Assembly (NCBI GenBank): GCA_025060615.1
Contig: JANXBS010000014.1
Span: forward strand, 1 to 64,000
Direction of reading: 5' to 3'
DNA from: Anaerolineae bacterium
GTDB taxonomy: Bacteria; Chloroflexota; Anaerolineae; DUEN01
Length of the DNA: 64,000 nucleotides
The translations under genes were made by a program, and so were the position numbers. Shown piece by piece: positions 7,607 through 18,688 of this stretch; position 1 is the first letter of the stretch; the number at the start of each line of letters is the position of its first letter. Under the pieces are notes generated by a model. That model had not been told where the DNA came from. It did not search any database and saw only the letters and a list, made by a program, of their open reading frames with translations.

Positions 7607-8860
7607 GTGAGCAAGAGAAACGAACGGGCACGTATCATACTGTACACGGGCAAGGGAGGTGTTGGAAAGACCAGCGTGAGCGCAGCGACAGCCGTCCGTT
7701 GTGCTGAGCTGGGCTACCGTACAGTGGTGGTGAGCACCGATGCAGCCCATAGCCTTGCCGATAGCTTCGACCTGTCCCTGGGGCCGGAGCCGACGCCTAT
7801 CGCCCCGAACCTATGGGGACAGGAGATAGACCTCCTGTATCAGATGGAAAAATACTGGGGCAAGGTCCAGGAATACCTGACAGCCATCTTCGCCTGGCGT
7901 GGCATGGACGAGTTGGTGGCGGAGGAGACCAGTGTCCTGCCCGGCATGGAGGAGCTGGCCAGCCTGATGCAGATCACCTACCTCAATGATCTAGGCGAGT
8001 TTGATGTGATCATCGTAGACTGCGCGCCCACAGGCGCTACGCTTCAACTATTGGCCTTCCCCGAGATGGCGCGCTGGTATCTGGAGAAGATCTTCCCTAT
8101 TGAGCGCAAGGCCATGCAACTAGCCCGTCCCATCCTGAAGGCGGTGGTAGACATGCCCTTGCCGGACGACGAGCTGTTCGACACCGTGGCCGAGCTGATC
8201 CGGCAGCTCGATCGCATGCACGGCCTCCTGAGCGATCCGGATCGCACGACGGCTCGCCTAGTGCTGAACCCGGAGAAGATGGTGATCAAGGAGGCACAAC
8301 GTGCCTTTACCTATCTCAACCTGTATGGTTACGCCACCGACCTCATCATCTGTAACCGGATGATCCCCGGCCAGGTCTCTGATGGCTATTTCTCCTCCTG
8401 GAAGGAGATTCAGAGCCGTTATCATCAGATGGTCGAGGAGGCCTTCAGTCCGCTGCCGATCTTAGACGTCCCGCTCTTCGATCAGGAGGTCGTGGGGCTA
8501 GAGATGCTGCGGAAGATGGCCCTAGCGATCTTCGGGGATCAGGATCCCGCCCAGGTGTTCTACCGGGGCAAGACCCAGCAGATCATCAAGAAGGATCAGC
8601 ATTACCAGTTGAGCTTGCCGCTGCCGCTGGTAGACCGCTCTCGCATCCACCTCACCAAAACCGCTCATGATGAACTGGTCATCCGCATCGGCAACTGGAA
8701 ACGCAATCTGCTGCTGCCGCGCGTGCTGGCAGGGCTGGAGGTGGCCGGCGCCCGTTATGAGGGCGACCAGCTCATCGTCACCTTCGTCTCCAGCGATGGA
8801 CAGCCACCTAAGGTTAGCGATGAGCTGCTCCCATCACCCGTCTCCGAGCCCTCAAGCTGA
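7607..8860 (+). CDS. ArsA/Get3-family ATPase with C-terminal HSP20-like domain
   Basis: A soluble P-loop ATPase of the ArsA/Get3 type. Seen: deviant Walker [11 protein letters not shown] near residues 12-21, switch I DAAHSLADSF, and switch II DCAPTGATLQLL. A final domain of about 80 residues resembles the HSP20-like domain fused to many bacterial ArsA-like proteins. Family members move arsenite or handle tail-anchored membrane proteins; bacterial single-domain forms are poorly understood. No arsenic genes are nearby. GTG starts exist at 7598, 7601 and 7607; I prefer 7607 because AAAGG lies 8 nt before it. The coding region begins immediately after the GH57 stop. Confidence 0.88.
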   Translation: MSKRNERARIILYTGKGGVGKTSVSAATAVRCAELGYRTVVVSTDAAHSLADSFDLSLGPEPTPIAPNLWGQEIDLLYQMEKYWGKVQEYLTAIFAWRGMDELVAEETSVLPGMEELASLMQITYLNDLGEFDVIIVDCAPTGATLQLLAFPEMARWYLEKIFPIERKAMQLARPILKAVVDMPLPDDELFDTVAELIRQLDRMHGLLSDPDRTTARLVLNPEKMVIKEAQRAFTYLNLYGYATDLIICNRMIPGQVSDGYFSSWKEIQSRYHQMVEEAFSPLPILDVPLFDQEVVGLEMLRKMALAIFGDQDPAQVFYRGKTQQIIKKDQHYQLSLPLPLVDRSRIHLTKTAHDELVIRIGNWKRNLLLPRVLAGLEVAGARYEGDQLIVTFVSSDGQPPKVSDELLPSPVSEPSS

Positions 8861-9695
8861 GCCGGCCTGGAAACGCTACCTGACCGACTACAACGAGGGC
8901 CTGGGACTAGTCTACGAACGCTTCGTCCTGAATGACTTCCTAGAGCAGTTGCGTCAACGCTATAGCATCCGCAGCGTGCTCGAGGCGCCGCTCTTCGGCA
9001 TGGCCGGCGTCAGCGGCATCAACAGCGTGATCCTGGCCCGTGCCGGCTGCAATGTCACTTTAGTGGACGACGAGCCAGAACGCCTGGCCGGCGTTCGGCG
9101 CATCTGGTGTGAGCTAAAACTTCCTGTGACGTTGGTCCAGGTAAGCCGATGGGGCTGGTGTTCGCTTCCCTTCGCCGATCGTAGTTTTGACCTTTGCTGG
9201 CAGTGGGCGGGGCTATGGCACCTGGCGGATGCGGCCGGCTTGCTGCGCGAGCTGGTGCGCTGCGCCCGTCGGGCCATCTTTGTGGCGATGCCGAACCGCT
9301 GGCAGGTGGGCTACCTCCTGCGCAAGCTGGTGATAGACCGGCCCTTCTTTCGGACGGTGGATGAGCGCTGGGCTCAGATCGGCCGCATCCGCTGGATACT
9401 TGAAGCAGCGGGGGCTCAGGTGGTTGAGCAGGGGGTGCTTGATGTGCCCCCTTGGCCCGACACGGTGATGCCGGCCGCGGAGGTACTAGGGCGGCTGGGC
9501 ATCCGGTCGCGCTGGCTGAAGAAGCGATTCAGCGGGAGCAACTGGCATTGGTCCACCATGGCCTACTATCTAGGGCAGGCGCCCAAGCTCTACGATCGAG
9601 TAATGCGCTATGCCTGGCTTGAGCGTGCGCCCCTGCCCTGGCCTCTTAAAGCGATGTGGGGACATCATCGCTACCTGATCGCCATCCCCAGTTGA
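8820..9695 (+). CDS. Class I SAM-dependent methyltransferase-like protein
   Basis: A 291-residue protein with a Rossmann methyltransferase layout: a glycine-rich loop (FGMAGVSGINS) near residue 50, an acidic end of strand 2 (VTLVDDEPERLAGV), and a DLCWQWAGLWHLADA segment after strand 4. The substrate is unknown. The start ATG at 8820 overlaps the ArsA-like gene by 41 nt and has AAGG about 8 nt upstream; reading further upstream gives low-complexity sequence and is rejected. The overlap points to translational coupling with the ArsA-like ATPase. Confidence 0.75.
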   Translation: MSCSHHPSPSPQAEPAWKRYLTDYNEGLGLVYERFVLNDFLEQLRQRYSIRSVLEAPLFGMAGVSGINSVILARAGCNVTLVDDEPERLAGVRRIWCELKLPVTLVQVSRWGWCSLPFADRSFDLCWQWAGLWHLADAAGLLRELVRCARRAIFVAMPNRWQVGYLLRKLVIDRPFFRTVDERWAQIGRIRWILEAAGAQVVEQGVLDVPPWPDTVMPAAEVLGRLGIRSRWLKKRFSGSNWHWSTMAYYLGQAPKLYDRVMRYAWLERAPLPWPLKAMWGHHRYLIAIPS

Positions 9696-9783: not shown

Positions 9784-12204
9784 ATGGGTATCTTACGTCG
9801 CTCTCAACCACTTCATCCATCACCTCTCGTCCCTCGCTCCCTTTCCCTTCTACTTTTACTGTTCGTCGCCGCCGCCTTCCGGCTTTGGCAAATCGGAGCC
9901 ATCCCCCCTGGCCTCTTCGGCGATGAGGCGGTAAACGGCCTGGATGCGCTCGATGTACTGGCCGGCCGCCCGCAAGTGTTCTTCCCCGCCAACTACGGAC
10001 GTGAGGGCCTGCATATGTTCCTGGTGGCCTTTAGTTTCCTCGTCTTCGGCGTCAATGAGTTCGCGTTGCGGTTCCCCTCTATCATCGCCGGCCTAGTGAC
10101 AGTGCCGCTGACATATCAGCTAGGGAAAGAGCTGCTGCGGCACACCCCGCTGGAGAACACGCCGGTCCCTTTGCTCAGCGCGGCTTTCCTGGCCACCAGC
10201 TTCTGGCACGTGCACTTCAGCCGATTCGGCGTGCGCGGAGTATTCACCCCGCTGATGACCGCGCTAGCGTTTTGGGCTCTTTGGCGCGGGGTCAACCGCC
10301 GTGATCTGCGCTGGCTAGTAGGGGCCGGGATAGCGCTGGGCATCAACTTGTATTTCTATACAGCGGCGCGCCTAGTGCCTATTTTTCTGGCCTTATATCT
10401 GGCCCTGGAATGGTGGATCAACCGACGCGCCCGGCGCTCGCCGATCCTGCGCAGCCAGTTTTTAGGCATTGTCGCTCTCTATACCACTGCCGCAGTGGTC
10501 TTCGTGCCCTTGTTCGTCTACTTCGTACAGCATCCTGGCGCCTTCACCGCCCGAGCCAGCGAGGTATTCGTTGGGAACCCGCGTGTGAGCGAGGGCAATC
10601 CGATCATCAAGTCGCTACTGGCGCTCTTCGCCAGCGTGCTCCAGTTTTTCGTGGCAGGCCTGGGAGATCGCGATTGGTTTTATAACTTGCCCGGCCGCCC
10701 GGTCTTCGACGTAGTGACCGGCGCCCTGACGATCATCGGCGTGCTGGCTCTGCTTCCACGGTGGCGCAACCAGCGTTATCTGTTCCTACTCCTATGGTGG
10801 CCGGTGATGCTGATCCCAACGTTCCTGGCCGTAGACCGCATCCCGGCCCTGCCGCGGGCATTGGGCGTGCTCCCTGGCCTGTACTTCTTCCCAGCGATCG
10901 GCGCATGGCAACTAGTCGAACGGGTGCGCACTCGCCTGAGCCGGCAAGATCAACGACAGGCGATCGCGTTGGCGCTGGCCGGCCCACTGATCTTGCACGC
11001 CACCGTGAACTGGTGGGGCTATTTCGTATCCTGGGGACGTTCTGCCGGCGCGTTTGACGCCTTCGACGGAGATGTGGTCGCCGCCGCTCATTGGCTTAGG
11101 GATCATCGGCCTGATCGGCTGGCCTATCTCTCAGCCGACATCTATCGCCATCCATCCTTTATGCTGTTGTATGAGCAAGTGCCCCTTACCCGCTTTTTCG
11201 AGGTGCGCAACCCCCGCCTGCGCTGGTTTGACGCCCGCTATGCATTGTTAATGCCGCCACCTGGAGGCGCCATCTATCTGCTGGGCAACTCGGCGATGCC
11301 CGATCGCGATCGGCTGCGCCGCCTTCTGCCCGTGATGACCCCGCTGGCCATCGTAGTCGGCCCCGGTGGCCCAGGGCTGGAAGTCTACCAGGTGGATAAA
11401 GGGGGGCCGCCACCGCGCACGCAAGGGCTGCCCGGCCAGGGTCTGCCCCGCCTAGTAGGGTATGGGATTGTGGGTGAAGCGCGGCCTGGCGGCATGTTGG
11501 AGGTGACGCTATACTGGCTGGTGGGCGATGCGGTCGACGCGCCGGCGGCCGAAGCGCCCAACCTGCGCGTGGCAGTCGAGGACGCGACGGGCGTCGAGCG
11601 CGGCGCCTGGACGGGAATCTTTCCCTATCGGTATGGCGAGTGGCATGCCGGTGACGTGGTAGCCACCTGGCACCAGGTGGCGATCGCTCAGGACGCCCCA
11701 CTCGGCCATTATAGCGTGCGCGTGGCGATGGAGGTGCCCGGTAGCCCGGTCACGCGGCTGACGCCTGGCGGTCTGGCTCCTGACTTCTCACTTCCCCAGG
11801 TGATCCCCACCGAGTTCAGCAACGGTATTCAGATGCTGGACATCCAAACCCGGCCGGCCATCGGCGATCGAGCACGGGTGATCATTGACTTGGTCTGGCG
11901 TCTGATCCGGCCCGCAGAGACCTCTTACACGCTATTCGTGCATTTGCTCAACGCAAACGGCGAGCTGGTAGCGCAAGCGGACACGATCCCCGTCGCAGGT
12001 CTCTTTCCCACAGATGCTTGGCCTATAGGTGTGCCCGTGCGTGATCAGGTCGAGATCGCGCTGCCCCCAGGTGCTCTCCCCGGACGTTATACCCTCGTGC
12101 TGGGCTGGTACGACTGGCGCACCGGCGAGCGGTTCCCAGTGACAGACCTCGCCGGCCAGCCGCTCACGGATCGGATCGAGCTGCCGGTGGAGATGAAGCC
12201 ATGA
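9784..12204 (+). CDS. Family 39-type (GT-C) membrane glycosyltransferase
   Basis: A polytopic membrane protein of 806 residues of the PMT/ArnT-like GT-C class, which transfers sugars from polyprenyl-phosphate donors at the outer face of the membrane. Seen: a first helix near 15-33, then the loop PPGLFGDEAVN with the acidic Asp-Glu pair typical of the active site. About ten more hydrophobic segments follow up to about residue 420, then a soluble C-terminal region (about 500-806) rich in beta-strand-like sequence. It is followed by a second large membrane protein with a 4-nt ATGA overlap. The acceptor is unknown; envelope glycan or glycoprotein work is an inference. Confidence 0.82.
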   Translation: MGILRRSQPLHPSPLVPRSLSLLLLLFVAAAFRLWQIGAIPPGLFGDEAVNGLDALDVLAGRPQVFFPANYGREGLHMFLVAFSFLVFGVNEFALRFPSIIAGLVTVPLTYQLGKELLRHTPLENTPVPLLSAAFLATSFWHVHFSRFGVRGVFTPLMTALAFWALWRGVNRRDLRWLVGAGIALGINLYFYTAARLVPIFLALYLALEWWINRRARRSPILRSQFLGIVALYTTAAVVFVPLFVYFVQHPGAFTARASEVFVGNPRVSEGNPIIKSLLALFASVLQFFVAGLGDRDWFYNLPGRPVFDVVTGALTIIGVLALLPRWRNQRYLFLLLWWPVMLIPTFLAVDRIPALPRALGVLPGLYFFPAIGAWQLVERVRTRLSRQDQRQAIALALAGPLILHATVNWWGYFVSWGRSAGAFDAFDGDVVAAAHWLRDHRPDRLAYLSADIYRHPSFMLLYEQVPLTRFFEVRNPRLRWFDARYALLMPPPGGAIYLLGNSAMPDRDRLRRLLPVMTPLAIVVGPGGPGLEVYQVDKGGPPPRTQGLPGQGLPRLVGYGIVGEARPGGMLEVTLYWLVGDAVDAPAAEAPNLRVAVEDATGVERGAWTGIFPYRYGEWHAGDVVATWHQVAIAQDAPLGHYSVRVAMEVPGSPVTRLTPGGLAPDFSLPQVIPTEFSNGIQMLDIQTRPAIGDRARVIIDLVWRLIRPAETSYTLFVHLLNANGELVAQADTIPVAGLFPTDAWPIGVPVRDQVEIALPPGALPGRYTLVLGWYDWRTGERFPVTDLAGQPLTDRIELPVEMKP

Positions 12205-15059
12205 ATGGAACGAGGGGTCTCCGCTTTCTGGTCCAGTATCCATTGTCAGAGCGCTGGCGAGCGCATGCCCTCGTAGTCGCCCTGTTTGTTGTGTTGGCTT
12301 TCGGCCTAAGTTATCCGCTGCCTCTGCGGTTCACGACCCATACGCCGGGGACTGCCACCTGGGCCTTCGATGAGTCCACATTTCTATGGAACATCTGGTA
12401 TTTCAAACACGCCCTTCTCAATCTGGGCACCTCGCCTTTGCACAGCGAGCTTATCTGGTATCCGCTGGGCATCGACCTGATCCTGCACACGTACAATTTC
12501 TTTAATGCGCTACTGGCCTTTCCGCTGCAACTGGCATGGGGGCTGGTCCCAGCCTCGAACAGCACATTGATCTTCGCCACGGCGCTTAGCGGGTATGGAG
12601 CCTATCTGTTGGCACGCCAGCTCCTGAGGGACTGGCATCTTCTCCCCTCCGGGTCAGTGGGCCACCTGCCTCCTCTGTTGGCCGGGCTGATCTACGCTTT
12701 CGGTTCGAATCGAGCAGTCTACCTCGCCCTAGGCCATTACGACATGGTGACCACCGGTTGCATTCCCCTGTATGCGCTGTATTTGGTGCGTTCACTGCGC
12801 GCGTCCGGCCCCATGCGCCGCTCAGACTGGCATAACGCAACGATGGCTGGACTTTTCTTCGCCCTCGCCGCGCTGGCCGAGATGATCTTCGCCGTCTTCC
12901 TGGCGTTGCTGACCCTCATCTTCGCCATCACCGCGCTCCAATTCTCGTCGGCCTCCCATTGGCCTTTCGTCCTTCGCCTCACCTCTGTGCTCAAACGCCT
13001 GGCCGTCATCGCGCTCGTCGCCGCTTTGCTCTGGGGCCCAGTGTTCATCCCTATCGTCCGAGAATTCATCAGTGGCGATTACGCCTTAGAAGGATGGGGC
13101 GAGGGGCTCAAACTCAGCACCGATCTGCTTGGATTCATCACGCCCACTGCGCTACATCCGATCTGGGGAGAGAACTGGCAACGAGCGCTGCGCGCAGTGG
13201 AGGAGGGGACGGCGCGCTTCTCGGACGTGAACACTGTCTTCATAGGATGGGTCACACTGGCATTGGCGCTGATCGGCGCCCTAGTGAGTGGATGGCGGGG
13301 CCGTCCCTGGCGTTGGACGGCGCTGCTCTTCGGCCTCTTTTGCCTAGGGCCGCTGCTCCAGATCAATGGTCGCTACGAGTTTAGCCTGGATCGGCTGTTG
13401 GGCGAGCGCGGCGTCACGTTCCCTATGCCGTTCGCCTTGCTTCACTACATCCCCTTTGTCAAGGCCAACCGCGCGCCTAACCGCAACAGCGTCGTCCTGA
13501 TGTTAGGGATAGCCGTACTGGCCGCGTTGGCCGTGGCCTGGATCACCACTGCTCGACGCCAAAATGCGCTGCTTGCAAGAGGGATGAGGCGGATTGGTAA
13601 CCTCTTGTCTGTAGTCCTAGCTGTGGCGATCCTATTCGAACACGCAGCTATCCCGATGCCGCTTACCGACGCGCGTGTACCCGCCATATACCGACAGATC
13701 GCCGCTGAACCGGACGAGTTCGCTATCCTGCAACTGCCGTTAGGGTGGCGCAACTCTTTCGGCGTCTTCGGCTCGGAATGGACGCAGGTGCAGTTTTACC
13801 AGACGGTGCACGGTAAGCCAATGCTGGGCGGCAATATCAGCCGCGCCCCCAGCTTTAAGATGGAGTACTTCCGCCGCCTGCCGCTATTCCAGGCGATCGC
13901 CGAGGTCGAGTTTGGCCAACCAGTGTCCCCCGAGGTGGATGCAGCTGCGCGAGCGCAGGCCGCTGAGCTGATGTACCTGTACGATGTACGTTATCTGGTC
14001 ATCCTCCCCCCCATCCCCGGCCGCTACCCGTATATCGATACCTATGCAGCGACCCGCGAGTACGTGCTCAGCCTGTTGCCCGTAGAGCCTAAGCCATTTT
14101 ACGACGAAGGGGGCGTACAGGCTTATCGGATCTTACAGCCGGCCGGACGAGCCGATTTCGAGCTGGACCTGGGCACCGGCCATTCGGCCGCTTACCGGGG
14201 CGAAGGCTGGCACGAGGATGAGCAGCCGTTTGGAACTACTGCCACCTGGGCTGGTGCTAGACAGGTTCGCCTGTTCTTGCCTGTGCGCGTTCAATCTCCC
14301 TCCCCGGCCTATCGGCTCTCCTTACGAGTTCATCCGTTCGCGTATCCGGGCGCGCCGATACAGCGAGTGCAGGCGTTTGTCAATGGCCGCCCGCTGGGCG
14401 AGCCTGCCCCACTGGAGGCGGGCTGGAGCGTCGTCCAATTCGACGTGCCGGCTGGCGCTGTGCGCGATGGGCTCAACCGGATCACGCTGGCCTTCGACTG
14501 GACGGCAAGGCCACGTGACGTGCTCCCAGCCGATGCCCGCATAGGCCAGACCGGCGTGGAAACTCCGGTGGACATCGAGATCAACGCCACCGCCGAGTTC
14601 GCTTACATCACCCTGGAGGACGACCGGGGCGCTCGCGTGGATGGCTCGGCTGGCCGACGAGGATACAACGTGGCGGTGATAAATCCACATAGCGGCCGCC
14701 TGTTAGAGCGGCGCGGCTTCGACACGGCGGCCAATGCCTACGAGGCAGAGCGGTTGGCGCAGTTCCTCCAAGAGATACCGGAAGGTCTTATCGTGGTAGC
14801 AGCCACCCGCGGGCCGGGCACAGCTCATCTGACCGATCAGGCTTGGGCGGCTTTACAAGAGATCGGAGCCGGGCAAGATCCGCGGGGGATACCTGGCGTA
14901 TCCCACGCAATCATCGGCGTGAAAGGCGCTCTCCCCGGCAGTGCCGTTGAGGTCGTGCGGACCGGTGGCGCCTATCTGCGCATCGGGCGAAACCCGGATC
15001 GGCGGTCATTAGCTGCCGCAGTAGACTGGGTCCGGTTGGAACCAACACAGACAAGGTGA
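12201..15059 (+). CDS. Large GT-C-like membrane protein with C-terminal FAM3/ILEI-type domain
   Basis: A 952-residue membrane protein. The first half has about ten hydrophobic helices and a DEST motif in the first external loop ([14 protein letters not shown]), as in GT-C glycosyltransferases. Residues 500-790 are a soluble, beta-rich region. Residues from about 790 to 945 look like an interleukin-like EMT inducer (ILEI/FAM3) domain. They show a GYNVAVINP strand, [19 protein letters not shown], a [16 protein letters not shown] block, and [10 protein letters not shown]. This domain is known from vertebrate FAM3 cytokines and the POMGnT1 stem, where it binds carbohydrate. ATG overlaps the previous stop, so the two act as a pair. 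Confidence 0.75.
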
Positions 15060-15122: not shown

Positions 15123-17507
15123 ATGGTTGTATGGTCCCAACTCAACGCGTCTCAAAGACAGGGGATAACGTCTTCTGTCTATGAGAATAGCAACCATCCA
15201 GCATATCTGCTTCCCTTCTCGTTGGCGAGAAAAGGGAGAAAAACCGGCATGCTCTGTATATCGGTCAATGCCCAGTCGCTCATCCATACAAAGCGTGAGC
15301 TTCGTGCGGTACGGAATGAACAGTTATTGTCCCCTGAAGTACTGGGACGAGGAACCGAGCTCGCCAGACTGCAGGATTACTATGCTGCGGCTCTAAGGGG
15401 TAACGCGCCCATCGTTATGATAGAGGGAGAGGCGGGCACAGGGAAAACGCACTTATTGCGTTTGTTTGCGGCCTGGGCGGAACGTCAGGGCGCCCGCGTG
15501 CTTTCGGTCACGTGTTATGAGGTGGAAACGCAAGTCCCCTATGGAAGTCTGATACGCACCCTACAAGCCTTCCTCAGTGACAATGGCCTAACCTGGGATC
15601 CCTCTATTGCTGCCCTACTGGGGCTTCCCCATCAAGTGCCCACATTAATGCGGCTCATGTCGTTTTGGACGTGGGATCTCGAGCGGATAGGGGGCGAAAC
15701 ACGGGCAGTGCCTGCGCCGCCCGTACGTCCCGCGCAATCGGCGCAGGTGCTCTTCCATCCCGGCCAAGTACGTGAGGAGATGATTCAGCTCTTCAAGGCG
15801 CTGGCCAAGCATACCCCCCTGGTGATCATCCTGGACGACCTGCACTGGGCAGATACCGCTACGCTGGAGCTGTGGAGTGCAGCGTATAGGCAACTGCGTG
15901 GGCTGCCAGTGCTCATCCTCGGCAGTTACTGCCCAGAAGAAGTAGATCAGGCCCATCCATTATACCGACTCAACTTTCGGCTATCCCGTCTAGTTCCGTT
16001 CGTTTATGAGGGAGGAGAAACGGGAGGCCCTGAGACCTTCCTCGTCCGGATTCGCCTGCGGCCGTTAGAAAAAGAGGCGATCCAGCGACTAGTAGCCGCC
16101 TTCGCCCCGGATAAGGAAATCCCCAAAGATTGGATCGAAAAGCGGCGACAGTACGGGGATGAACCACTTGCCTTCTGGACCGCCTGGGCGCGATGGATCG
16201 CCTCTTCCGATTCGCTGGACTTGGCTTCTGCTAACTTAGATGAACTTCATAAAAGGCTGATAGAGGTGCTGGATCCTGCGGCCCGTTCCATCCTGGAGGC
16301 CGCTGCTGTGCTAGGATCAGAGGCTGAAGGAGAGTTGCTGGCTTTTGTAGCTGGGCTGTCGGACGAAGAGGCGGCTCGAGCTTTACGGCGATTGGCCGAC
16401 GACGGGTTATTGGACGATCGCAGTGGGAAATACAAGATCGCCAATACGCTGCTCATCCGCACGATATACGAGGGACTGAGCGAGGGACGACGGAACGAGC
16501 TACATCGGCGGGTAGGCCAGGGTTTGGAACACTTTTACCCTTATCGGCTGAATGCAATGGCCGCTGTGCTGGCCAGGCATTACAAAGCAGCTGGTGAGCT
16601 CAACCTGGCACTGCGCTATCTCATGAAAGCAGGGGCCTGGGCATATCGCCTAGCCGCCTTAAAGGAAGCCGGCGAACTCTATTGGGATGCCCTTTCGCTG
16701 GCGGTGTTGGCCGGGGACGCTCACGCCCAAGTGCTCATCCATGAGGCATTGGGCGATATCCACATGCAGATGGGGGATCATCGGGCCGCACAGGGCCATT
16801 TCCACGCAGCGTTAGGAGGAGCGCATTCCGCCTCGCAGCAAGCATTGATTCGAGTACGGATGGCTCGTAGCTTGGGCGCAACTGGCCAGTATGAACAGGC
16901 TCGAACTGCCCTACGTCAGGCCTTGCAAGCATTAATCGGCGAACATAACCTTCAGGCTCAAGGCATCGTCTGGCTTCACTTGGCATGGATAGAGGAGCTG
17001 TTAGGCAATCGAGTGGCGGCCCTGTTTGCGGCCAATCACGCCCGCGCCGCCGCCATCCAAACGGACGATCCGGCATTGAAGGCGGATGCGGCCCTCGCAT
17101 TGGCGCTTCTGTACTGGCACCAGCCTGCAGTCAAAGCACAACGAGACCTCGAACAGGCGCGTGAATTGTGCCGATTGAGCATCCAGATCCGAGAACAGAT
17201 GGGAGACGTAGCCGGGTGCGCTCGTGCTTGGGCCTATCTGGGCATGATCGAACGCGACCAAGGGCATTTATCCGCGGCCTGTCAATGCTTTGCGAAGAGC
17301 GCAGAGGCCTATCGCCAGATTGGCGATTGGTTATCGGAGGCAACTATCCGGGCACGATGGGGAGAGGCTAGCGCGGCTGCCGGAAACCTGATCGAATCAG
17401 TAACGCAGTTCCGACGAGCGTTCGAGCTGCATCGTGAACTCCAAAACGTGGATAACGCTTTCGACCCGCCCCTTTGGACCCATCCCCTCTTCAATGGTGA
17501 ACCGTGA
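15123..17507 (+). CDS. STAND/AAA-type signalling ATPase with TPR-like repeats
   Basis: A soluble protein with an AAA_16-like NTPase module: GRGTELARL at the start, Walker A GEAGTGKTH near residue 102, and Walker B VIILDDLHWAD near 234. A winged-helix-like region near 375-450 follows, and the last 300 residues are helical TPR-like repeats. This is the plan of MalT/AfsR-like regulators, but no terminal DNA-binding domain (LuxR HTH or BTAD) is visible. The true start may be ATG 15249, 42 codons downstream, which has GGGAG 10 nt before it; the extra N-terminus looks non-conserved. It is expressed alone, convergent with the DUF1786 operon. Confidence 0.75.
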   Translation: MVVWSQLNASQRQGITSSVYENSNHPAYLLPFSLARKGRKTGMLCISVNAQSLIHTKRELRAVRNEQLLSPEVLGRGTELARLQDYYAAALRGNAPIVMIEGEAGTGKTHLLRLFAAWAERQGARVLSVTCYEVETQVPYGSLIRTLQAFLSDNGLTWDPSIAALLGLPHQVPTLMRLMSFWTWDLERIGGETRAVPAPPVRPAQSAQVLFHPGQVREEMIQLFKALAKHTPLVIILDDLHWADTATLELWSAAYRQLRGLPVLILGSYCPEEVDQAHPLYRLNFRLSRLVPFVYEGGETGGPETFLVRIRLRPLEKEAIQRLVAAFAPDKEIPKDWIEKRRQYGDEPLAFWTAWARWIASSDSLDLASANLDELHKRLIEVLDPAARSILEAAAVLGSEAEGELLAFVAGLSDEEAARALRRLADDGLLDDRSGKYKIANTLLIRTIYEGLSEGRRNELHRRVGQGLEHFYPYRLNAMAAVLARHYKAAGELNLALRYLMKAGAWAYRLAALKEAGELYWDALSLAVLAGDAHAQVLIHEALGDIHMQMGDHRAAQGHFHAALGGAHSASQQALIRVRMARSLGATGQYEQARTALRQALQALIGEHNLQAQGIVWLHLAWIEELLGNRVAALFAANHARAAAIQTDDPALKADAALALALLYWHQPAVKAQRDLEQARELCRLSIQIREQMGDVAGCARAWAYLGMIERDQGHLSAACQCFAKSAEAYRQIGDWLSEATIRARWGEASAAAGNLIESVTQFRRAFELHRELQNVDNAFDPPLWTHPLFNGEP

Positions 17508-17557: not shown

Positions 17558-18688
17558 TCACCATAAACTGCAGCCCCTATGGCCGCGATTCAATGCCGCG
17601 GCGATCCGCTCGGCCCAACCAGGCTCCAGATCGGCTATAGCCCGGATCAAGCCGAAACAGCCAGCCATCATCTGATCTCCATGAGGCGCTGCCAAATAAA
17701 CTGGCAATTCGCCATCTAGCAGGAGACCCCGCCGCGGCCCAGTGACGGCCAGGAAGTCAAGCAGCTGAGGGGTCGAATCCAGGATCAAGGCGCCGTGGCC
17801 ATGTTCGGCGAACACTTGCTCATGGGTGATACTGCCATCAGCTAGAGCAACCAACCAACGCTTCAGGCGAGCCCGATCCAACAAGCCGGTGTGATGCTCG
17901 AACAGCCGGGCGATCTGGCCGTCTCTGAACTGAAAGGCCAGACAGTGAAAGTTGCCCACGTTGACAACCTGTGCGTTCGGCCGAGCCCGTACGACGGGGT
18001 CCTCCAGCGCGCCTAGAATCGCAGCTGGGGCTGTGTCCATCACATAGATAGGCAGCCCGCTTTGCTGAGCAGCTGTGTCGGCCACGGCTCGCAGACGCGT
18101 CATGATTCCAGGGATCGCATCAGCGCGAAAGGCGAAGGTGGACAGACGTGGGTTTATCTTCAGCCGTTCGGCCAGGTAATCCAGGCGGAACTGGCGATCG
18201 CTGATGGCAGGGGGCGCGTTACCGTGATCGAATACAGCGACGGCCAGCGCATCCGGGTGCAGCTCTACACCGAAGGCAGCAAAGGCGCTGCGAATAGCTG
18301 GGTAATCTAGATCGCGCATCTCCACGTGCACAAACCTGTCCCGCCGCACCAGCGCCATAGCCTCATCATCCGAAACGAGCCGAACGCCCAAGTCCCGCTG
18401 CACTGCGTCCAGGTCATCGTTGAACGAGCGGGCGGCGTCCGGCGTGGCATAGATGGGCAGGCCGGCTTTGTAATGGTCCTCCGCAGCCCAGGCGCTGGGG
18501 CCACCGCCCATGGTGACGCCGGTGAGCACAAGGCCACGGCGTTCGATGGTCGCCTGGCGCATTCGTTTGGCCACCAATAACGTCGGCGACGGCATGACCA
18601 TCTTTAGGCAATTTTCGGGATCGCGCTCGCTGTCAAACAACAGGATGTCCTGAGTTCCCGTCCCAACGTCGACGGCTAAGATCTGCAT
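17558..18688 (-). CDS. DUF1786 protein (actin/HSP70-like ATPase fold)
   Basis: A 376-residue member of DUF1786, annotated in some databases as a putative pyruvate formate-lyase activating enzyme, without experimental support I know of. Seen: the phosphate 1 motif of the ASKHA fold at the very start (MQILAVDVGTGTQDILLFD) and a conserved GVTMGGGPSAWA block. A second glycine-rich strand pair (VVNVGNFHCLAFQFRDG) resembles phosphate 2. It ends a six-gene operon and starts 15 nt after lipA. The role is unknown; an ATP-dependent activation or repair function would fit the fold. Confidence 0.8.
   Translation of the reverse strand: MQILAVDVGTGTQDILLFDSERDPENCLKMVMPSPTLLVAKRMRQATIERRGLVLTGVTMGGGPSAWAAEDHYKAGLPIYATPDAARSFNDDLDAVQRDLGVRLVSDDEAMALVRRDRFVHVEMRDLDYPAIRSAFAAFGVELHPDALAVAVFDHGNAPPAISDRQFRLDYLAERLKINPRLSTFAFRADAIPGIMTRLRAVADTAAQQSGLPIYVMDTAPAAILGALEDPVVRARPNAQVVNVGNFHCLAFQFRDGQIARLFEHHTGLLDRARLKRWLVALADGSITHEQVFAEHGHGALILDSTPQLLDFLAVTGPRRGLLLDGELPVYLAAPHGDQMMAGCFGLIRAIADLEPGWAERIAAALNRGHRGCSLW

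Follow-up and report, generated by a model that had tools for sequence, protein, structure and literature searches.

A contig from an Anaerolineae bacterium encodes a membrane protein of 952 amino acids (positions 12201..15059 on the forward strand of the window, by which we mean the whole stretch of 64,000 nucleotides that was analysed) whose C-terminus resembles a domain best known from vertebrate FAM3 proteins and from the stem of the glycosyltransferase POMGnT1. This raises the question of what such a domain could be doing at the end of a bacterial membrane protein, particularly as it is unclear how FAM3 proteins, which have been investigated as cytokine-like factors, act. The kind of domain is not new: FAM3, POMGnT1, TMEM2 and phage gp35 were reported to share it in 2006 under the name GG domain (cited in PMC10276149). 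We examined the identity of the domain and of the protein that carries it, their distribution in Chloroflexota, the conservation of the sugar-binding site and the genes in the neighborhood.

Identification of an ILEI/FAM3 domain

The ILEI profile (PF15711) was the sole Pfam match of the protein, aligning with residues 820-910 (14658..14930, forward strand) over the full profile (positions 1-90 of 90) with 63.2 bits (hmmscan, E 3e-17) against a cut-off of 27 bits. A six-frame search gave 68.7 bits, and none of 14 control genomes contained a match. When the single sequence was compared with PDB by phmmer, the POMGnT1 stem came first (E 4e-9), followed by FAM3C, FAM3A and FAM3B, and a profile of 13 bacterial ILEI sequences retrieved POMGnT1, the FAM3 set and TMEM2 (cell surface hyaluronidase) with E values from 2e-17 to 9e-12. 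A chance match can be excluded. The identity to the human POMGnT1 domain is only 22-24%.

An AlphaFold2 model based on 67 aligned sequences (mean pLDDT 93.3, pTM 0.90) shows a GT-C-like membrane core of many helices (residues 12-480, 12234..13640, forward strand), an alpha/beta linker, a beta sandwich (residues 656-775, 14166..14525, forward strand) and finally the ILEI/FAM3 (GG) domain (residues 781-948, 14541..15044, forward strand). In a Foldseek search with the full model, TM-scores normalized by target length reached 0.76 for the POMGnT1 stem, 0.68 for FAM3C and 0.64 for FAM3B, and the isolated domain model (residues 781-948) matched only POMGnT1, FAM3 and TMEM2 structures in PDB at E <0.001. 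The profile score and the predicted fold, which overlays those of FAM3 and POMGnT1, together confirm the ILEI/FAM3 domain that a preliminary description of this DNA had proposed for positions 14568-15059. The domain, which that description called best known from vertebrates, is not confined to them; phage tail proteins containing it are known (PMC10276149, PMC9437275). The beta sandwich in front of it, identified by its strands in the model, has no Pfam match and is the least conserved part of the protein; judging from the model, it is possibly a second carbohydrate-binding-like module.

A GT-C-like membrane core with a conserved acidic loop

Among PDB structures, the arabinofuranosyltransferase AftD was the best Foldseek match of the full model (E 3e-10). 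STT3/oligosaccharyltransferase, AglB and AftA came next, and then the POMGnT1 stem, with DPY19, PglB and ArnT among the matches after it. Global TM-scores between the model and these GT-C enzymes reach only 0.26-0.37 by query, in part owing to differences outside the core, and hence the assignment to GT-C is made at the level of the superfamily and not of a named family. None of the Pfam glycosyltransferase families matched the membrane core, including PMT (PF02366) and PMT_2 (PF13231), both searched at E 0.01, and YfhO (PF09586), so that the GT-C call rests on the structural match and on an acidic loop. This loop, the first on the outer side, contains D57-E58 (12369..12374, forward strand) within an F-D-E-S-T motif, a candidate GT-C catalytic or metal site. 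In the 72 homologues whose alignment rows cover these columns, D57 is always kept and residue 58 is always acidic (E in 60 and D in 12), in line with the earlier suggestion of a large membrane protein with a DEST loop typical of GT-C enzymes. Further residues of the core are invariant in the homologue alignment as well (D308, R424, R428, W516, R517, H537, N545, and R548). With its multi-pass core and acidic residues in the first outer loop, the protein is predicted to have a GT-C fold at superfamily level.

Besides the window protein and a second ILEI copy (see below), the same genome contains one more protein homologous to the membrane core (C4:94785-96599, L172). It is matched over residues 18-663, has a different acidic loop (GDSFDGW) and gave no PF15711 match.

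Distribution of the fusion in Chloroflexota

The fusion proved to be widespread in Chloroflexota, where the preliminary description had suggested looking for it. PF15711 was detected in 11 of 400 genomes across the phylum and in 136 of 396 genomes from the class (34%), many of the latter having two or three copies. A scan of named GTDB contigs, biased towards window-like proteins by its use of a full-length alignment, yielded 80 loci, the titles of which nearly all refer to Chloroflexota lineages (Anaerolineae or Caldilineae in most cases). The ILEI domain is retained at the C-terminus of almost every full-length homologue, at 33-75% identity, suggesting that the domain is probably under selection. 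Five homologues (L059, L062, L063, L069, and L086) lack it in spite of a contig or reading frame that continues or ends naturally, implying that the core does not depend on ILEI everywhere; one of them (L062) stops near the end of its contig and another (L069) is a clade-2 homologue (see below) on the complete chromosome CP070811.

The same domain was also found in YfhO-type proteins (L016, L017, L018, L019, L022, and L023), all six from other classes of the phylum, in which it forms an insert that precedes the C-terminal membrane segment; the Pfam YfhO match was confirmed for the two that were tested (L016 and L019). As blastp similarity between the window protein and these proteins is limited to the C-terminal part around ILEI, the same domain occurs on two different GT-C scaffolds. 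Origin of the domain from phages or plasmids was considered and rejected: tblastn with the ILEI domain of the window protein and with that of one YfhO-type protein returned nothing from 50,697 phages and 72,556 plasmids, and two scans of viral contigs revealed no relative. The phage GG domains of the literature must be too distant for these tblastn and viral-contig searches.

Divergence of the sugar-binding site between two clades

FAM3C, FAM3A and the POMGnT1 stem bind GlcNAc, and in POMGnT1 the direct sugar contacts are R129, D179 and R207 (PMC9802357). The three residues are as given in PMC9802357 and PMC9437275; the distances between them (50 from R to D and 28 from D to R) match the PDB chain exactly. 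Alignment with the POMGnT1 stem gives R820 (14658..14660), G871 (14811..14813) and G899 (14895..14897, all forward strand) as the equivalents in the window protein; only the first contact is kept and the other two are lost, so the POMGnT1-type triad is absent. However, a second ILEI copy in the same genome (C8:107108-107377, analyzed as locus L014) has all three contacts. Its gene lies at L014:9869-12604, and the domain covers approximately residues 745-911 of the product.

A tree built from the membrane core, the linker and the beta sandwich, with the ILEI columns left out, separates these paralogues. In this unrooted tree, the branches of clade 1 (12 rows, including L014) and clade 2 (63 rows, including the window protein) both received an SH-aLRT support of 100%. 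The equivalents of D179 and R207 are both present in 13 of 13 aligned clade-1 domains (the first position being R in 11 and K in 2), in 22 of 22 clade-1 copies typed from multi-copy genomes and in 14 of 14 from single-copy genomes, three sets that overlap because some copies recur. In contrast, no full triad was found in clade 2 among 59 aligned copies, 18 from multi-copy genomes or 5 from single-copy genomes, the first Arg being mostly the only contact retained. The column of D179 is 100% D in clade 1 and 62% G in clade 2, and that of R207 is 100% R in clade 1 and 75% G in clade 2. YfhO-type ILEI domains keep the D179 equivalent (YDEG, where FAM3C has YDDG) but not that of R207.

Clade 2 has a conserved set of its own, namely R819 (98%), N845 (94%), D933 (100%) and R935 (100%), which is not conserved in clade 1; at the columns of the D933-x-R935 pair (14997..15005, forward strand), clade 1 has T (0.64) and P (1.0). 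The mean frequency of the top residue across the ILEI domain is similar in both clades (0.60 vs 0.66), which together with this invariant set implies that clade 2 has not decayed, and from its sequence conservation clade 2 reads as having changed its ligand or role and not as having lost constraint. The proposal in the preliminary description of a sugar-recognition module is partly supported: the profile match, the predicted fold and the wide occurrence of the fusion agree with it, whereas POMGnT1-type sugar reading by the window copy itself is weakened, since two of its three contacts are Gly and are lost in most of clade 2. The paralogue L014 is a better candidate for GlcNAc-type recognition than the window protein.

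Pairing of the two clades within genomes

From the 396-genome class set, 18 multi-copy genomes were picked solely because two or three PF15711 matches were listed for them. Each of them has exactly one clade-2 copy: 14 of 14 two-copy genomes contain one copy per clade, and 4 of 4 three-copy genomes contain two clade-1 copies and one clade-2 copy. The typed genomes are related, and hence these counts are not independent trials. The one-plus-one pattern was also observed in the genome of the window and in G184. Twenty single-copy genomes were typed, several of them incomplete, with clade 1 only in 14, clade 2 only in 5 and the YfhO type in 1. The paired genes are located on different contigs in every two-copy genome that was typed, as they are in the genome of the window.

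Genes surrounding the two paralogues

Bacterial genes flank the window gene on both sides. Directly upstream is a glycosyltransferase gene (9784..12204, forward strand), the stop codon of which overlaps the start of the 12201-15059 gene by 4 bases (ATGA); its match to Pfam PMT_2/PMT agrees with the family 39-type neighbor reported in the preliminary description. Homologues of this GT39-type gene are separated from the downstream gene by no more than about 120 bases in L026, L035, L038 and L100, with an identity of 76% in L026 (which has the same arrangement) and 39-46% in the other three, and farther upstream in L037 and L068. Further upstream in the window is a SAM-dependent methyltransferase gene (Methyltransf_11; 8667..9695, forward strand), the listed start of which (8667) overlaps an ArsA ORF. 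Homologues of this gene were found in 6 loci, and a methyltransferase is the commonest type of neighbor in the scan of clade-2 genes, being directly upstream in 5 of 30. A fixed operon was ruled out because neighbors vary between loci.

The clade-1 paralogue lies beside a sugar cassette (L014:1335-9768, on contig C8 of the same genome). A GFO/IDH/MocA dehydrogenase and a hexapeptide acetyltransferase are encoded downstream of it and a DegT/DnrJ aminotransferase past two more genes, an order that is repeated in L105 and found in part in L020 and L096. We take this cassette to resemble the WbpB/WbpD/WbpE (WlbA/B/C) set, which converts a GlcNAc derivative into UDP-diacetamido-glucuronic acid. Such a cassette would fit a GlcNAc-like ligand of the intact triad in clade 1, as far as can be judged from 4 of 9 loci.

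Comparison with known systems

Mycobacterial AftD (the top Foldseek match) and EmbC combine a GT-C core with extracellular carbohydrate-binding modules, a design similar to that predicted for the window protein. To our knowledge, the carbohydrate-binding modules (CBMs) of AftD and EmbC have other folds, and neither protein has an ILEI domain. The C-terminal CBM of EmbC binds the acceptor (PMC3044687), and an extracellular CBM has been described on AftD and possibly on YfhO (PMC8035078). YfhO, the LTA/WTA GlcNAc transferase of Firmicutes, is also a GT-C enzyme with a supposed extracellular CBM (PMC8035078), and Chloroflexota YfhO-type proteins carry ILEI as an insert, but the window protein has no YfhO profile match. 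Human POMGnT1 (O-mannose beta-1,2-GlcNAc transferase) shares a homologous ILEI/GG fold (TM-score of the isolated stem 0.72-0.76 by target) on the outer or luminal side of a glycosyltransferase. However, POMGnT1 is held in the membrane by a single anchor and its catalytic domain is soluble, whereas the window protein would be a multi-pass GT-C transferase with ILEI at its C-terminus and without two of the three sugar contacts. FAM3A, FAM3B and FAM3C have the same fold (TM-scores 0.63-0.69 by target) but are free secreted proteins with no enzyme attached. Phage gp35 and Tal CBM_1 provide the same domain outside animals (PMC10276149, PMC9437275), although they belong to adhesion devices and are not enzymes; in a model of streptococcal phage Tal CBM_1, the R and D contacts are present (PMC9437275).

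No account of a bacterial ILEI-GT-C fusion or of the paired clades was found in the papers searched, most subscription journals lying outside that search. As far as these papers show, the GT-C fusion and the paired, asymmetric site are new; because the Pfam model detects these bacterial proteins directly, this means that they were not found described and not that nobody is aware of them.

Possible function of the fusion protein

While the domain identity, the GT-C-like fold of the model, the conserved fusion, the two clades and the residue changes are observations, the enzyme activity, donor, acceptor and ILEI ligand considered here for the window protein are inferred. The explanation that we prefer, and consider fairly probable, is an outward-facing GT-C transferase acting on a surface glycan, with ILEI as acceptor module. 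The enzyme would transfer to the glycan a sugar carried by a polyprenyl-phosphate donor, catalysis would involve the two acidic residues of the first outer loop, and the beta sandwich and ILEI domain outside the membrane would hold or position the acceptor glycan, similar to the CBM of EmbC (PMC3044687) and to what has been proposed for AftD and YfhO (PMC8035078). With its site rebuilt, the ILEI domain of the window copy would probably recognize something other than the ligand of the clade-1 paralogue, be it another sugar or a partner protein.

It is possible, if rather unlikely, that the clade-2 domain no longer binds sugar at all and has become a structural or protein-docking module, for instance towards a clade-1 partner or the neighboring GT39-type enzyme. 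That most of clade 2 has lost the equivalents of D179 and R207 would agree with this, as would the dimerization of FAM3C in crystals (5lc4), the presence of one clade-2 copy with one or two clade-1 copies in 18 of 18 genomes typed and the GT39 gene abutting the window-type gene at several loci. However, the location of the paired genes on different contigs speaks against docking, and the 94-100% conservation of R819, N845, D933 and R935 in clade 2 fits a new ligand site as well. That the window protein has no glycosyltransferase activity and is a catalytically dead, GT-C-like protein that scaffolds or regulates the assembly of surface glycans seems improbable: although its core matches no Pfam transferase family, the acidic pair is conserved in all 72 homologues, as are several core residues of charged or aromatic character, and the best structural matches are active transferases. 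Recent acquisition of the domain from a eukaryote, or contamination, might come to mind for a domain best known in vertebrate proteins, but we regard it as extremely improbable in view of the fusion being conserved in most of the 80 named contigs, the frequency of PF15711 in the class, the bacterial flanking genes, the low identity to the human POMGnT1 domain and the phage relatives already described (PMC9437275, PMC10276149).

Extending the preferred explanation of an acceptor-reading transferase, we tentatively propose that many Anaerolineae might possess a matched set of GT-C enzymes, in which the triad lets clade 1 recognize a GlcNAc-like sugar and a rebuilt site lets clade 2 recognize another sugar or a partner, so that one surface glycan is jointly built or ordered. 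If this is true, the FAM3 domain would be an ancient specificity module of glycosyltransferases and not an invention of cytokines. In any case, the retention of the sugar-contacting D and R in every clade-1 copy examined and their replacement in the sister clade, within a large bacterial family of predicted membrane glycosyltransferases, supports glycan recognition as the root function, and two copies in one cell offer a simple comparative system for examining what a FAM3-type domain reads. For Chloroflexota, whose machinery for surface glycans is poorly known, the domain is also a new candidate for a module that recognizes glycans.

Other genes near the two loci

Directly downstream of the window gene is an AAA_16 ATPase with TPR repeats (15123-17507), for which no homologue was found near related loci. 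It is followed by a DUF1786 protein (17558-18688, 244 bits), which adjoins a LipA-like radical SAM ORF and a dihydrolipoyl dehydrogenase-like ORF. At the clade-1 locus, a protein in which Reg_prop and Y_Y_Y propeller repeats are joined to a STAND-like AAA domain is encoded between the sugar genes (L014:3910-7116) and is followed by a second AAA protein (L014:2472-3833); homologues of these two proteins are also encoded alongside the clade-1 gene in L105 and L020.
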